Positions 2,516-10,640 of a stretch of 32,223 nucleotides of DNA are shown piece after piece. The stretch's first letter is position 1; each line of letters opens with the position of its first letter. The stretch lies in assembly GCA_017302505.1 (NCBI GenBank), contig JAFLDH010000017.1, positions 1-32,223 of the forward strand, read 5' to 3'. The DNA is from Burkholderiales bacterium (GTDB lineage: Bacteria; Pseudomonadota; Gammaproteobacteria; Burkholderiales; Burkholderiaceae_C). The notes under the pieces were generated by a model, which saw only the letters and a list, made by a program, of their open reading frames with translations, made no database searches and was not told where the DNA came from. Position numbers and translations under genes: made by a program.

Positions 2516-3058
2516 ATGAAACGAGCCTTTGCCTTGCTGTGCCTGCTGCTCGGCCTGCAGGGGCCGGTGCTGGCGGCGCTGGACGTGGGCGACCCGGCGC
2601 CGAACTTCAGCGTGCCGGCGGCGCTGGGCGGCAAGACCTTCCAGTACCAGCTGTCCGATGCGCTGGCCAAGGGGCCGGTGGTGCTGTATTTCTTCCCGGC
2701 AGCCTTCTCCGAAGGCTGCTCGATCGAGGCGCACCAGTTCGCCGAGGCCATCGGCCGTTTCGAGGCGCTGGGCGCGTCGGTGATCGGCGTGTCGGGCGAC
2801 GACATTGGCGTGATCACGCGCTTTTCGGTGCAGGCCTGCCAGGGCAAGTTTCCGGTGGCGGCCGACGAGACCAAGGCGGTGATCAAGGCCTACGACGCAG
2901 CCATGCAGACGCGGCCGGACTTTGCCAACCGCGTGTCCTACGTGATCGCGCCGAACGGCAAGGTGGTCTACAGCTACCTGAGCCTGAACCCGAACCAGCA
3001 CGTGGAGAAGACACTGGCCGCACTGGCCCGCTGGACCAAGGACAACCCGCGGCGGTAG
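2516..3058 (+). CDS. Exported peroxiredoxin (AhpC/TSA family)
   Basis: A 180-residue thiol peroxidase. Residues 1-20 form a signal peptide (MKRAFALLCLLLGLQGPVLA) so the enzyme should act in the periplasm, reducing hydrogen peroxide or organic peroxides. The mature protein has the family start DVGDPAPNFSVPA, then VVLYFFPAAFSEGCSIEA with the peroxidatic cysteine at Cys68; the usual Pro-x(3)-Thr-x(2)-Cys has Ser for Thr. Cys108 in VQACQGKFPVA could be a resolving cysteine. The end matches the family segment VSYVIAPNGKVVYSY. The ATG at 2516 follows GGAG and fits the signal peptide. It is transcribed away from the amidohydrolase operon and its stop is only 16 bases before the probable trp promoter -10 box. 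The in vivo reductant is unknown. Confidence 0.9.
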   Translation: MKRAFALLCLLLGLQGPVLAALDVGDPAPNFSVPAALGGKTFQYQLSDALAKGPVVLYFFPAAFSEGCSIEAHQFAEAIGRFEALGASVIGVSGDDIGVITRFSVQACQGKFPVAADETKAVIKAYDAAMQTRPDFANRVSYVIAPNGKVVYSYLSLNPNQHVEKTLAALARWTKDNPRR

Positions 3059-3074
3059 GCGCCTGCCGGTGCGC

Positions 3075-3080
3075 TAGACT
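3075..3080 (+). promoter_or_regulatory. Candidate trp operon -10 box
   Basis: TAGACT at 3075-3080 matches the TATAAT consensus at T1, A2, A4 and T6. No good -35 hexamer lies 16-18 bases upstream, in the end of the peroxiredoxin gene, so an activator or weak promoter is possible. Standard spacing puts transcription start at 3087-3088, which is the ATG of the leader peptide. It is supported mainly by its position in the short gap ahead of the leader peptide. Confidence 0.4.
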
Positions 3081-3087
3081 TCGGCCC

Positions 3088-3162
3088 ATGTTCACGTCCC
3101 GCAAGCACAGGTCGCTCGACCGGGGAGCCTGGCCCTGGCGTCGCTGGCATTCGCTCGGCTAG
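3088..3162 (+). CDS. trpL: trp operon leader peptide (three Trp codons)
   Basis: A 24-codon frame, ATG to TAG, encoding MFTSRKHRSLDRGAWPWRRW followed by HSLG. Three TGG codons fall at 3130-3132, 3136-3138 and 3145-3147, within six codons. Tryptophan is rare, so a short cluster just upstream of trpE is the hallmark of a ribosome-stalling attenuator peptide: uncharged tRNA-Trp stalls the ribosome and alters RNA folding downstream. No Shine-Dalgarno sequence precedes the ATG (the bases are CTTCGGCCC), and the likely -10 box ends 7 bases before it. The peptide may therefore be translated from a leaderless transcript, as described for the Sinorhizobium trp leader. Seen: the frame, the Trp cluster, no SD. 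Inferred: leaderless start and regulatory role. Confidence 0.82.
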   Translation: MFTSRKHRSLDRGAWPWRRWHSLG

Positions 3163-3256
3163 CTTGCTGCCGGCCCTGGGCCGGTGTTGGACCCCCTTGC
3201 AGATTGGATGTGCCGTGACCGGGCCCCGCCCGGCTGCCCCGCGGTCTGCAGACTTC
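3129..3256 (+). promoter_or_regulatory. trp attenuator: competing RNA pairings ahead of trpE
   Basis: Several pairings exclude one another. Segment 1, CTGGCCC (3129-3135, over the first Trp codon), can pair with segment 2, GGGCCGG (3178-3184). Segment 2 can instead close a local hairpin with CCGGCC (3170-3175), or pair with segment 3, CCGGGCCC (3219-3226), with one bulge. Segment 3 otherwise forms a 6-bp hairpin with segment 4, GCCCGG (3228-3233). An outer stem joins 3198-3206 to 3242-3250, just before the trpE ribosome site (GAGG, 3257-3260). A stalled ribosome would cover segment 1 and shift the balance. No T-run follows the 3:4 hairpin, so intrinsic termination is doubtful; Rho-dependent termination or blocked trpE translation are alternatives. 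Confidence 0.55.
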
Positions 3257-3267
3257 GAGGAATCGAC

Positions 3268-4752
3268 GTGATCACCGAACTGGAATTCAAGAGCCTGAGT
3301 GCGCAGGGCTACAACCGCATCCCGCTCATCGCGGAAGCCTTCGCCGACCTGGAAACCCCGCTGTCGCTGTACCTGAAGCTGGCTTACGCCAGCGGCGGCG
3401 GCAAGCACAGCTTCCTGCTGGAAAGCGTGGTCGGCGGCGAGCGCTTCGGCCGCTACTCCTTCATCGGACTGCCGGCGCGCACGCTGCTGCGCGCCACCGG
3501 CCCGCGCACAGAGGTCGTCACCGACGGCGAGGCGGTGGAGGTGCACGAGGGCAACCCGCTGGACTTCATCGCCGAGTATCAGAAGCGCTTCAAGGTGGCG
3601 CTGCGCCCGGGGCTGCCGCGCTTCTGCGGCGGGCTGGCCGGCTACTTCGGCTACGACGCGGTGCGCTTCATCGAGCCGAAGCTGGCGGCGGTGCGCAAGA
3701 CCGGCGGCATCGGTACGCCGGACATCCTGCTGCTGCAGTGCGAGGAACTGGCCGTCATCGACAACCTGTCGGGCCGGCTGTACCTGATCGTCTATGCCAA
3801 TCCGGCCGAGCCCGAGGCGTTCTCCAAGGCCAAGCGCCGCTTGGCGGCGCTGAGCGACAAGCTGCAGTACAGCGTCACCGCGCCGGCAGTGAAGCGCGGC
3901 GCCAGCCATTCGGTGGAGCGCGAGTTTGCCAAGGCCGACTACCTGGCGGCGGTGCTGAAGGCCAAGGAATACATCGCCGCAGGCGACATGATGCAGGTGC
4001 AGGTGGGTCAGCGTCTGCGCAAGCGCTACACCGAAAGCCCGCTGAGCCTGTACCGCGCGCTGCGTTCGTTGAACCCTTCGCCCTACATGTACTTCTACGA
4101 CATGGGCGACTTCCAGATCGTCGGTGCGTCGCCCGAGATCCTGGTGCGGCAGGAGCACACGCCCGAGGGCGAGAAGGTGACCATCCGCCCGCTGGCCGGC
4201 ACGCGGCCGCGCGGCGCCACGCCGGAGCAGGACAAGGCGCTGGAGGAAGAACTGCGCGGCGACCCGAAGGAGCGCGCCGAGCACGTGATGCTGATCGACC
4301 TGGCGCGCAACGACATCGGCCGCATCGCGCGCACCGGCAGCGTCAAGGTCACCGAGGCCTTCGCCATCGAGCGCTATTCGCACGTGATGCACATCGTCAG
4401 CAACGTCGAGGGGCTGTTGCTCGACGGCATGAGCAGCCTGGACGTGCTGCGCGCCACCTTCCCGGCCGGCACGCTGACCGGCGCGCCCAAGGTGCGGGCG
4501 ATGGAGATCATCGACGAGCTGGAGCCGGTGCAGCGCGGCATCTACGGCGGTGCCTGCGGCTATCTGAGCTTCGCCGGTGACATGGACGTGGCCATCGCCA
4601 TCCGCACCGGCATCGTCAAGGACGGCACGCTGTACGTGCAGGCCGCGGCCGGCGTGGTGGCCGATTCGGTGCCCGAGCTGGAGTGGAAGGAAACGGAAGC
4701 GAAGGCGCGCGCGCTGATGCGTGCGGCCGAACTCGTCGAGGAGGGCTTCTGA
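3268..4752 (+). CDS. trpE: Anthranilate synthase component I
   Basis: A 494-residue enzyme that turns chorismate into anthranilate with ammonia supplied by TrpG, the first step of tryptophan synthesis. The N-terminal LLES motif (residues 50-53) belongs to the tryptophan feedback site. The C-terminal chorismate-binding domain shows [45 protein letters not shown] and [11 protein letters not shown] chose GTG at 3268 ([10 protein letters not shown]) because GAGG lies 7 bases upstream and close relatives begin at this point; an in-frame ATG at 3184 lies inside the attenuator stems. trpG starts one base after the stop. Expression is probably controlled by the leader peptide upstream as well as by feedback inhibition. 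Confidence 0.96.
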
Positions 4753-4753
4753 C

Positions 4754-5341
4754 ATGTTGCTCATGATCGACAACTACGACAGCTTCACCTACAACCTGGT
4801 GCAGTACTTCGGCGAGCTGGGCGAGGAGGTGCGTGTCTTCCGCAACGACCAGATCACGCTGGAAGGCATCGCCGGCCTGAAGCCTGATTCGCTGGTGCTG
4901 TCGCCGGGGCCTTGCTCGCCGGCCGAGGCCGGCATCTGCATCGACGCGATCCGCCACTTCCAGGGCAAGCTGCCGATCCTGGGCGTGTGCCTGGGCCACC
5001 AGTCCATCGGCGCGGCGCTGGGCGGCAAGATCGTGCGCGCCAAGGTCCAGATGCACGGCAAGACCAGCGTCATCAGCACCGACGAGCGCGGCGTCTATGC
5101 CGGGCTGCCGCGGCGGTTCACGGTGAACCGCTACCACTCGCTGGTGATCGAGCGGTCCAGCCTGCCGGCGGCGCTGGAGGTCAGCGCCACCGCCGACGAC
5201 GACGGCGAGATCATGGGCGTGCGCCACCGCGCGCTGGCCGGCACGCGCACGCCGCTGGAAGGTGTGCAGTTCCATCCGGAGTCGATCATCAGCGAGCATG
5301 GGCATGCGCTGCTGAAGAACTTCCTGGAGGCGGCCCGATGA
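4754..5341 (+). CDS. trpG: Anthranilate synthase component II, glutamine amidotransferase
   Basis: A 195-residue class I glutamine amidotransferase that releases ammonia from glutamine for TrpE. It starts [19 protein letters not shown], the family opening. The oxyanion region is [11 protein letters not shown], the nucleophile is Cys79 in [11 protein letters not shown], and the other triad residues are His174 and Glu176 in VQFHPES. In some bacteria the same subunit also serves 4-amino-4-deoxychorismate synthase; no pabB is seen here. The ATG at 4754 follows GAGGAGGG in the end of trpE; the ATG at 4763 is a less likely start. Its stop overlaps the start of the threonine aldolase gene (ATGA), so these genes are translationally coupled. 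Confidence 0.96.
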
Positions 5342-6360
5342 TCGTCGACCTGCGCAGCGACACCGTCACGCGGCCCACGCCCGCGATGCGCGAGGCGATG
5401 CAGCGCGCGCCGCTCGGCGACGACGTCTTCGGCGACGACCCCTCGGTCAACGCCCTGCAGGAACAGATCGCGGACATGCTGGGCAAGGAGGCGGCGCTGT
5501 TCATGCCCAGCGGCACGCAGAGCAACCTGGCCGGCATCATGAGCCACTGCGGCCGCGGCGACGAGTACATCGTGGGTCAAGGCGCGCATTGCTATCGCTA
5601 CGAGGCCGGCGGCGCGGCGGTGCTGGGCAGCGTGCAGCCGCAGCCGCTGCCGAACCAGCCCGACGGCAGCCTGGCGCTGGCCGACATCGAAGCCGCCATC
5701 AAGCCCGACGACGAGCATTTCGCACGGAGCCGGCTGCTGGCGCTGGAAAACACGCTGGGCGGCAAGGTGCTGCCGCTGGGCTACCTGGCCGAGGCGACAT
5801 CGCTGGCGCGTGAGCGCAGCCTGGGCACCCACCTGGACGGCGCGCGGCTCTTCAACGCGGCAGTGGCGATGGGCGGCGATCCGCGCGCGAATGCGCGGGC
5901 CATCGCGGGCCATTTCGACAGCGTTTCGGTGTGCTTCAGCAAAGGTCTGGGCGCACCGGTGGGTTCGGCGCTGGTGGGCTCGAAGGCGCTGGTGCAGCGC
6001 GCGCACCGCTGGCGCAAGATGCTGGGCGGGGGCCTGCGCCAGGCCGGCGTGCTGGCGGCGGCAGCACAGCACGCGCTGGCGCACCACATCGATCGCTTGG
6101 CCGAAGACCACGCGTTGGCGCTGCACCTGGCCCAGGGACTGCAAGGTATCAAGGGCCTCGAGCTGCAGATGCCGCAGACGAACATCCTGTTCGTGCAGGT
6201 GCAGGGCGGCCGGGGCCAGGCCTTGCTGGCCCACCTGAAAGAGCTGGGCGTGCTGGCCACGGGCCTGAGTGGCCTGCGCTTCGTGACCCACCTGGATGTG
6301 GACCGTGCCGGCATCGACCGGGCGATTGCCGCCGTGCGCGGCTTCTTCGGGGAGCATTGA
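5338..6360 (+). CDS. ltaE: Low-specificity L-threonine aldolase
   Basis: A 340-residue fold-type I PLP enzyme that cleaves L-threonine or L-allo-threonine to glycine and acetaldehyde. It starts [20 protein letters not shown], the family signature. Further marks are [30 protein letters not shown] (Asp167 contacts the PLP pyridine) and [12 protein letters not shown] with Lys202 as the Schiff-base lysine. The ATG overlaps the trpG stop (ATGA), with GGAGG 7 bases upstream, and trpD begins one base after its stop, so it is embedded in the trp operon. It has no step in tryptophan synthesis; the placement may tie glycine/threonine or serine-glycine metabolism to tryptophan demand, or be a historical insertion. 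Stereospecificity (L against L-allo) cannot be told from sequence. Confidence 0.92.
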
Positions 6361-8986: not shown

Positions 8987-9072
8987 GGAGGGGTGCCCGA
9001 GTGGCTAAAGGGGGCAGACTGTAAATCTGTTGGCTTACGCCTACGCTGGTTCGAATCCAGCCTCCTCCACCA
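8987..9072 (+). tRNA. tRNA-Tyr (GUA)
   Basis: A class II tRNA of 86 bases including an encoded CCA. The acceptor stem GGAGGGG pairs with CTCCTCC (9062-9068) with one G-U. The anticodon stem GCAGA/TCTGT encloses the loop CTGTAAA, giving anticodon GTA. A long variable arm precedes the T arm, whose loop is TTCGAAT. It is first of four tRNAs around the first tuf gene, the same Tyr-Gly-Thr-tuf order as in E. coli tufB. Confidence 0.97.
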
Positions 9073-9113
9073 GGCGACTGGACTTGTCGTGTTCCGCGTA
9101 CAGGGCTGACCAA

Positions 9114-9187
9114 GCGGGAGTAGTTTAATGGCAGAACCTTAGCCTTCCAAGCTAATGGCGCGGGTTCGATTCCCGCTTCCCGCTCCA
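9114..9187 (+). tRNA. tRNA-Gly (UCC)
   Basis: A 74-base tRNA with encoded CCA. The acceptor stem GCGGGAG pairs with TTCCCGC (9177-9183). The anticodon stem TTAGC/GCTAA encloses CTTCCAA, giving anticodon TCC. The T arm is GCGGG-TTCGATT-CCCGC. It lies 41 bases after tRNA-Tyr in the same transcription unit. Confidence 0.97.
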
Positions 9188-9242
9188 GTGGCGGAGCCGT
9201 CGCCACAGGCCTGGATACCGAGGTGTCCAAGCCCGTGTCGAT

Positions 9243-9317
<75 letters not shown>

Positions 9318-9360
9318 ACCACAAGCATTGTCTGGATTGTCGATTTCAGGAGAAGACGAA

Positions 9361-10551
<1,191 letters not shown>

Positions 10552-10564
10552 CGGAGAGTTCCGC

Positions 10565-10640
10565 AGGGGCATAGCTCAACTGGCAGAGCGTCGGTCTCCA
10601 AAACCGAAGGTCGGGGGTTCGATCCCCTCTGCCCCTGCCA
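10565..10640 (+). tRNA. tRNA-Trp (CCA)
   Basis: A 76-base tRNA with encoded CCA. The acceptor stem AGGGGCA pairs with TGCCCCT (10630-10636), with discriminator G. The anticodon stem TCGGT/ACCGA encloses CTCCAAA, giving anticodon CCA. It starts 13 bases after the tuf stop and lies upstream of secE, the usual betaproteobacterial place. Confidence 0.97.

Follow-up and report, generated by a model that had tools for sequence, protein, structure and literature searches.

Attenuation of trp operons is a textbook example of control at the RNA level. In E. coli, the trp leader is a short ORF led by a Shine-Dalgarno (SD) sequence; it contains two Trp codons, its start pairs with distal RNA and a terminator with a U-tract is found further on. 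Leaderless leaders have also been described. In S. meliloti, trpL is a leaderless leader with Trp codons that encodes a peptide of 14 residues; its attenuator ends in a terminator and releases the sRNA rnTrpL (PMC7298713). In Streptomyces lividans, TrpL1 is transcribed leaderless upstream of trpE and has three consecutive Trp codons, with hairpins and a uridine-rich stretch for Rho-independent termination (PMC8079986). A leaderless trpL is in itself therefore already published, for these two organisms. In mycobacteria, leaderless short ORFs of the polycysteine type have been called translation attenuation (PMC13236596, citing Canestrari 2020). As for C. jejuni TrpL, it was identified through a small-ORF search that required a ribosome-binding site (PMC3847290). 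For trp attenuation in Burkholderiales, a search of one open-licence literature library returned no description.

The present study concerns a short ORF located before trpE in a Burkholderiales bacterium. The window, that is, the whole stretch of DNA analysed (32,223 nucleotides), corresponds to contig 79 of a genome of 5.5 Mb. As in E. coli, the leader is a short ORF with two conserved Trp codons, the start of which is predicted to pair with RNA further along; unlike the E. coli leader, it has no SD sequence and no terminator was found in the window. With S. meliloti trpL it has in common Trp codons in an apparently leaderless ORF that precedes trpE(G), but it has 24 codons instead of 14 residues, no terminator was found in the window, and its 5′-end is predicted to pair with the trpE start (PMC7298713). 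The resemblance to S. lividans TrpL1 lies in the apparently leaderless layout, the three Trp codons and the position of trpE as the next gene, the Trp codons being consecutive and the termination Rho-independent only in the Streptomyces case (PMC8079986). The mycobacterial ORFs are leaderless and short and contain codons for the sensed amino acid, but this amino acid is cysteine and the phylum is another one (PMC13236596). The main new finding is a coevolved pairing between the leader start and the trpE start, which extends beyond the region 3075-3162 where the leader had been noticed.

The leader and the trp genes of the window

The features of the locus, in window coordinates, are as follows.

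3075-3080, + strand: -10 element TAGACT; relatives mostly have TACACT, TAGACT or TAAACT
3088-3162, + strand: trp leader ORF of 24 codons, MFTSRKHRSLDRGAWPWRRWHSLG, predicted to be leaderless from sequence, conservation and -10 spacing
3089-3098, + strand: 5′ strand of the helix, in the start region of the leader, antisense to the trpE start (pair probabilities, coevolution)
3121-3140, + strand: conserved core CGGGGAGCCTGGCCCTGGCG (RGAWPWR)
3130-3132 and 3136-3138, + strand: the two conserved Trp codons, within the core (codons 15 and 17)
3145-3147, + strand: third Trp codon, not conserved
3257-3261, + strand: SD-like GAGGA of trpE, read from the sequence
3265-3274, + strand: 3′ strand of the helix, including the trpE start GTG at 3268-3270 (pair probabilities; trpE -15 to +10 is the coevolving partner)
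3268-4752, + strand: trpE, the regulated gene (Pfam Chorismate_bind 1.2e-89, Anth_synt_I_N 2e-29)
4754-5341, + strand: trpG, following trpE in the operon (the frame 4721-5338 matches Pfam GATase, 6.7e-58)

The leader ORF extends from an ATG at 3088-3090 to a stop codon at 3160-3162, with TGG codons at 3130, 3136 and 3145; a spacer of 7 nt, TCGGCCC, separates TAGACT from the ATG. The 24-codon, Trp-rich frame before trpE to which an earlier note on this DNA had drawn attention is thus present, with the coordinates and the three TGG codons claimed. Position 3184, the mechanical ORF start, was rejected as the trpE start; from the GTG at 3268, homologues align from residue 1. According to Pfam, the gene order is trpE, trpG, a Beta_elim_lyase gene, trpD and trpC. 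The Beta_elim_lyase family gene lying between trpG and trpD (4912-6360, Pfam 1.1e-97) is threonine-aldolase-like. Shortly downstream of the trp genes, at 8987-10640, tRNA-Tyr, tRNA-Gly and tRNA-Thr are followed by tRNA-Trp(CCA).

General searches gave little. No consensus -35/-10 pair was found in 2800-3400. A scan of the window with Rfam 15 at the gathering threshold retrieved only tRNAs and no leader match; in 2900-3400, with E up to 5, the one match obtained was at chance level and none was to a trp leader. Rfam covariance models did not match at the leaders of 8 relatives either. In folding energy, the whole leader does not exceed shuffled sequences in stability (z 0.36). Three matches to a looser pattern elsewhere in the same genome, considered as further copies of the leader, were by eye without leader context and were rejected.

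Conservation across the family

Conservation was examined upstream of 110 trpE loci, namely the best 80 named among the matches listed and 30 from a genome search, one of which is the window. The pattern GCN-TGG-NNN-TGG occurs within 500 nt upstream of trpE in 89 of these 110 loci; among the 21 loci without it, one (L042) has just 116 nt of upstream sequence. Of 299 family genomes, 231 contain the 20-mer core pattern, mostly in a single copy; its backward-read control was matched in 2 genomes. All 30 loci fetched through the core-pattern search lie upstream of a trpE-like frame. A cluster of two Trp codons, the conservation of which the earlier note had suggested checking in related genomes, is conserved, and the proposal of an apparently leaderless trp leader in a trpE-trpG operon of Burkholderiales holds across the family. 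The leader can be regarded, from sequence comparison, as a confirmed, family-wide feature, far from chance.

A set of 117 curated leaders was assembled from 87 of the 89 loci and the 30 core-pattern loci. Left out were L093, with a GTG start, and L036 (Ottowia beijingensis), which has both the -10 element and the ATG but carries its Trp core in a different frame from that ATG, as a result of either a broken leader or a sequencing error. Two pairs of leaders are identical (L009/L114 and L050/L127). The peptides contain two Trp in 97 cases, three in 18 and four in 2, the constancy of two Trp codons being demanded by the search pattern. Of the three Trp codons reported in the earlier note, two are conserved in the family and form the cluster of codons for the regulating amino acid, but the third, TGG 3145, has a counterpart in only 17 of 117 loci. 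The first Trp codon never occurs before codon 15, in 117/117 curated leaders and in 33/33 further loci. Many Comamonadaceae-type genomes have a leader of the form MF[IV]H...RGAWPWR; in Rubrivivax, the part 5′ of the core is more variable. Four distant relatives (L061, L064, L067 and L071) have another type of leader, with a WRWWR end instead of RGAWPWR. In L047, L173, L198 and L210, no leader TGG-NNN-TGG precedes trpE, which may reflect a loss or a rearranged upstream region; the upstream sequences of L047 and L173 are identical over the stretch compared.

The core is under constraint at synonymous sites. These sites were counted in the 89 loci, because the 30 others had been found through the core pattern itself. 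The core Arg codon is CGG in 78/78 cases and the Gly codon is GGA in 73/84, whereas in trpE of the same genomes CGG accounts for 12% of Arg codons and GGA for 2.4% of Gly codons. Three causes of this invariance were considered and set aside. The core hairpin CCGGGG-AGCCUGG-CCCUGG is insufficient, since 50% of synonymous recodings are at or below the native 24-mer. Pairing of the core with downstream RNA, including a match by eye to the trpE SD, is no better than in shuffles (mean z -0.27 in the genus, -0.06 in the other loci). An internal SD-like site 5′ of the Trp codons (-7.3 kcal/mol, equalled or exceeded by 3.3% of recodings) is weakly supported: the codon GGT would pair better, yet it is unused.

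A probable leaderless start

A hexamer TA[ACG]ACT ending 6-11 nt 5′ of the leader ATG is found in 108 of the 117 curated leaders, a count that is favoured in 20 loci because, where several in-frame ATGs were available, the start was set by hand in 17 loci and shifted in 3 more with the -10 element as a guide. The same spacing occurs on average 0.2 times, and at most twice, in 200 shuffles, and at none of the 117 trpE starts. The ATG lying 7 bases after a -10-like TAGACT, as the earlier note had it, belongs to a spacing class shared by the family. The lack of an SD sequence, also part of that proposal, is likewise seen in the family: SD-like tetramers at -20 to -4 are present in 2 of the 117 leaders, in 21 sequences when one shuffle of each is taken, and at 91 trpE starts. 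The mean energy of the duplex with the anti-SD is -0.73 kcal/mol at the leaders, as compared with -3.50 in shuffles and -6.24 at trpE starts. Moreover, five extra leaders (L088, L093, L175, L203 and L206) have a GTG start exactly 6 nt after a TANNNT hexamer, a fixed distance that would be expected if the start codon and the transcription start are tied together.

With usual promoter spacing, a gap of 6-11 nt corresponds to a 5′ UTR of about 0-4 nt, so the leaders would be leaderless or nearly so. A leaderless leader ORF is thus well, though indirectly, supported by these comparisons. Judging by the position of the -10 element, transcription in the window would start at 3087-3088; read-through from the gene upstream may also reach the leader. 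By its sequence, the leader is a short ORF with regulatory codons and without an SD, at the predicted 5′-end of the transcript. Among 24 loci from other Burkholderiales families, examined for the leaderless layout, 15 gave an ORF with two close Trp codons, but several of these ORFs were plainly spurious and the -10 spacing was unclear by eye.

Pairing of the leader 5′-end with the trpE start

Where codon 17 is the first Trp codon (78 leaders), the initial ~15 nt show a tendency to pair outside the ORF. In the window, nucleotides 3089-3090 and 3092-3098 are predicted to pair with 3273-3274 and 3265-3271; for three transcript lengths, the probabilities of these pairs lie at 0.49-0.98. This helix contains the U and the G of the leader AUG and the entire GTG of trpE, so that both starts would be closed together.

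Coevolution was analysed in the genus, taken here to be Rubrivivax in the GTDB sense. The genus set comprises 62 loci, the first 29 and 33 new ones retained from 44. Among the unused loci, the trpE start was missed by the regular expression in L169, L193 and L200, L184 has 45 nt of upstream sequence only, L175, L179, L203 and L206 have no ATG start, and no leader was found in L173, L198 and L210. L088 was kept in the analysis although its ATG is unlikely to be the true start. The 33 new loci provide no independent test of the -10 element, because this element was required for inclusion. In both tested segments, L012 is identical to L103 and L190-L192, and L020 to L197.

The first pairing test covered three regions in two sets of loci. 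In the 29 genus loci, leader nucleotides 1-16 pair with their own trpE -15 to +10 region at -11.71 kcal/mol, versus -9.70 kcal/mol for mismatched pairs (1 of 5000 permutations), and no signal was obtained with -110 to -15 (2958/5000) or with all RNA past the stop codon (353/5000). When the test, now fixed, was repeated with the 33 new loci, the values were -12.09 for own pairs and -9.22 kcal/mol for mismatched ones (0 of 20,000 permutations), and own pairing was lower in energy than with every one of 100 shuffled versions of the 5′-ends. The result was the same, 0/20,000, for the 24 new loci left after deduplication, with 5′-ends previously unseen. The value was also 0/20,000 for the 32 family loci with leaders other than MF[IV]H that were left once two overlapping the genus set had been removed; this set is not fully independent, because some of its members are Rubrivivax relatives. 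Three control regions, -60 to -35, -40 to -15 and +12 to +37, were null in the combined 62 loci (6373, 12101 and 8095 of 20,000).

A scan of 1060 pairs of 14-nt segments in the 62 loci placed leader 1-14 with trpE -10 to +4 first (t -7.8) and an adjacent pair second (t -6.6), all others lying between -3.3 and +3.7. No second coevolving pairing, such as would indicate an antiterminator-like fold, emerged from this genus scan. Contrasts between near relatives, which lessen an effect of shared ancestry that permutations do not fully remove, favoured the own pairs in 23 cases and disfavoured them in 6, another 2 being tied (p 0.00024). Among the own pairs, 21 of 62 contain a run of at least 6 Watson-Crick pairs, versus 12% of mismatched pairs.

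What carries the signal is the fit between the leader and the trpE start of the same locus, rather than raw pairing strength. In the genus, there is no enrichment of runs of at least 8 Watson-Crick pairs at any downstream position (2/62 versus 1.2 expected). Taken locus by locus, complementarity to the whole of the downstream RNA is weak (mean z -0.64; rank of 5% or better in 14/117), and pairing is weak in some genus loci, such as L182 (-2.8), L101 and L099. In the genus, the leader start and the initiation region of trpE have coevolved as pairing partners. Masking of this downstream initiation region by the leader is indicated by computation, through the coevolving helix.

Other genera

The MF[IV]H leaders behave differently. 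Their 5′-end matches a UGAAUGAAC-like element, located mostly 45-60 nt before trpE. The motif GAATG[AG][AC]C is found past the leader stop in 27 of 88 non-genus loci, versus 0.38 in shuffles; of these 27 loci, 25 belong to the 54 with MF[IV]H leaders and 2 to the remaining 34, and the genus has none (0/62). In the 54 MF[IV]H leaders, the trpE start was not the partner (1136/20,000), so that a single mechanism may fail to account for all members of the family. In the scan of segment pairs in the 88 non-genus loci, leader 1-14 with trpE -10 to +4 reached only t -2.1; the top pair was a local hairpin just past the leader stop, with weak coevolution (t -4.4). RNA pairing can account for the conserved N-terminus, because the sequence encoding MF[IV]H has a complementary element in the RNA downstream. 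The possibility that the UGAAUGAAC-like element is the start of a second small ORF was rejected, no consistent frame being seen by eye in a few loci.

Terminators

In the window, a simple consensus scan of 2800-3400, which atypical terminators would escape, found no intrinsic terminator. Between the core and trpE, the genus has terminator-like sites in 1 of 62 loci (0.6 expected), and the non-genus loci in 14 of 88, versus 6.0 (sd 1.8) expected, so some of these relatives may possess a terminator. The arrangement known from Sinorhizobium, which the earlier note had suggested for this DNA, is thus recovered in part: an apparently leaderless Trp leader before trpE is there, but a released sRNA is unsupported in the window because its terminator was not found. 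In the window, where the scan saw no terminator-like site, the leader would most naturally act on the translation of trpE.

A possible switch at the trpE start

We propose that the Trp-sensing leader acts on trpE translation, its own 5′-end being the masking strand; our confidence in this reading is evenly balanced. What was computed is the ORF with its conservation, the -10 spacing, the absence of an SD, the coevolved pairing and, for the window, the absence of a terminator; where transcription starts, that ribosomes stall and queue, and in which direction control works are inferred. Transcription would begin at the leader AUG or within a few bases, and ribosomes would hence load on a leaderless message. 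On an unoccupied leader, the first ~16 nt would pair with the ribosome-binding and start-codon region of trpE. When charged tRNA-Trp is scarce, a ribosome would stall at the two conserved Trp codons (15 and 17 in the window). A ribosome halted there would itself leave nucleotides 1-16 uncovered. As the first Trp codon never precedes codon 15, there would be room for a second ribosome on the AUG. This following ribosome would park on the leaderless AUG, thereby keeping the 5′-end unpaired and trpE open. When Trp is plentiful, the leader would be translated and vacated fast, and the helix would close.

The cost of opening the trpE start was calculated in this framework. Occupying the 5′-end in addition to the stall site lowers this cost by 1.35 kcal/mol on average in the 62 genus loci, as compared with 0.33-0.40 kcal/mol in three sets with shuffled 5′-ends. 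In the window, the cost decreases from 8.2 to 6.6 kcal/mol. The gain exceeds 2 kcal/mol in 22 of 62 genus loci, versus 9, 8 and 5 in the shuffled sets, and is 2 kcal/mol or less in the other 40. In the non-genus loci, it amounts to 0.60 versus 0.21-0.32 in shuffles (87 of 88 loci, one long leader being omitted). These modest energetics would fit, rather than prove, a switch that opens trpE at Trp shortage. Taken as a whole, the layout would be new: a leaderless leader start that is the antisense of the trpE start, two start codons that are mutually exclusive and a queue of ribosomes that senses the shortage. We regard this complete scheme as plausible but somewhat doubtful.

Alternative readings

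In E. coli, the trp leader limits itself through 5′ pairing after the first ribosome passes. The 5′ pairing seen here might likewise merely block repeated translation of the leader, which contains its AUG within the paired strand, with Trp control exerted elsewhere, for instance through Rho-dependent termination before trpE. For such a role, any downstream segment would suffice, but coevolution in the genus involves the trpE initiation region, with no signal in the segments beside it. We consider a purely self-limiting role rather unlikely. It is nevertheless a serious rival, because the energy effect is modest and because the MF[IV]H partner sits upstream of the trpE start, where pairing would close the leader and not trpE directly; termination would also agree with the terminators that some non-genus relatives may have.

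Another reading is a transcription attenuation of the Sinorhizobium or E. coli kind, with Trp-dependent termination before trpE and a released sRNA possibly active in trans. A leaderless leader with Trp codons upstream of trpE has been published for S. meliloti (PMC7298713), and the excess of terminator-like sites outside the genus points the same way. The simple consensus scan, however, found no such site in the window and about the expected number in the genus, and transcription attenuation is improbable here.

The 24-residue peptide might itself be active, either by nascent-chain arrest involving RGAWPWR, the amino acids of which are conserved amid varying flanks, or in trans once released, as the earlier note had suggested for an Arg-rich peptide. 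The latter proposal found no support: upstream of RGAWPWR the genus peptides vary widely, and pairing of the RNA can explain MF[IV]H. Outside the core, they also differ widely in length as well as in sequence, and the constraint on the synonymous sites of the core points to RNA. A function of the peptide seems quite improbable. Finally, a chance ORF without function would agree with the lack of a consensus -35 and of an Rfam match, but with its position, -10 spacing and core conserved across the family, this idea has a negligible probability.

Significance

The conserved N-terminus MF[IV]H carries a warning, in that conservation of a leader peptide at this end need not imply a functional peptide. 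Concerning the preferred reading, in which the leader start masks the trpE start, two consequences may be envisaged if it is true. The coevolved helix would supply a reason for having a leaderless leader at all. Furthermore, this family-wide, leaderless version of trp attenuation would show a leaderless start doubling as a regulatory antisense strand.
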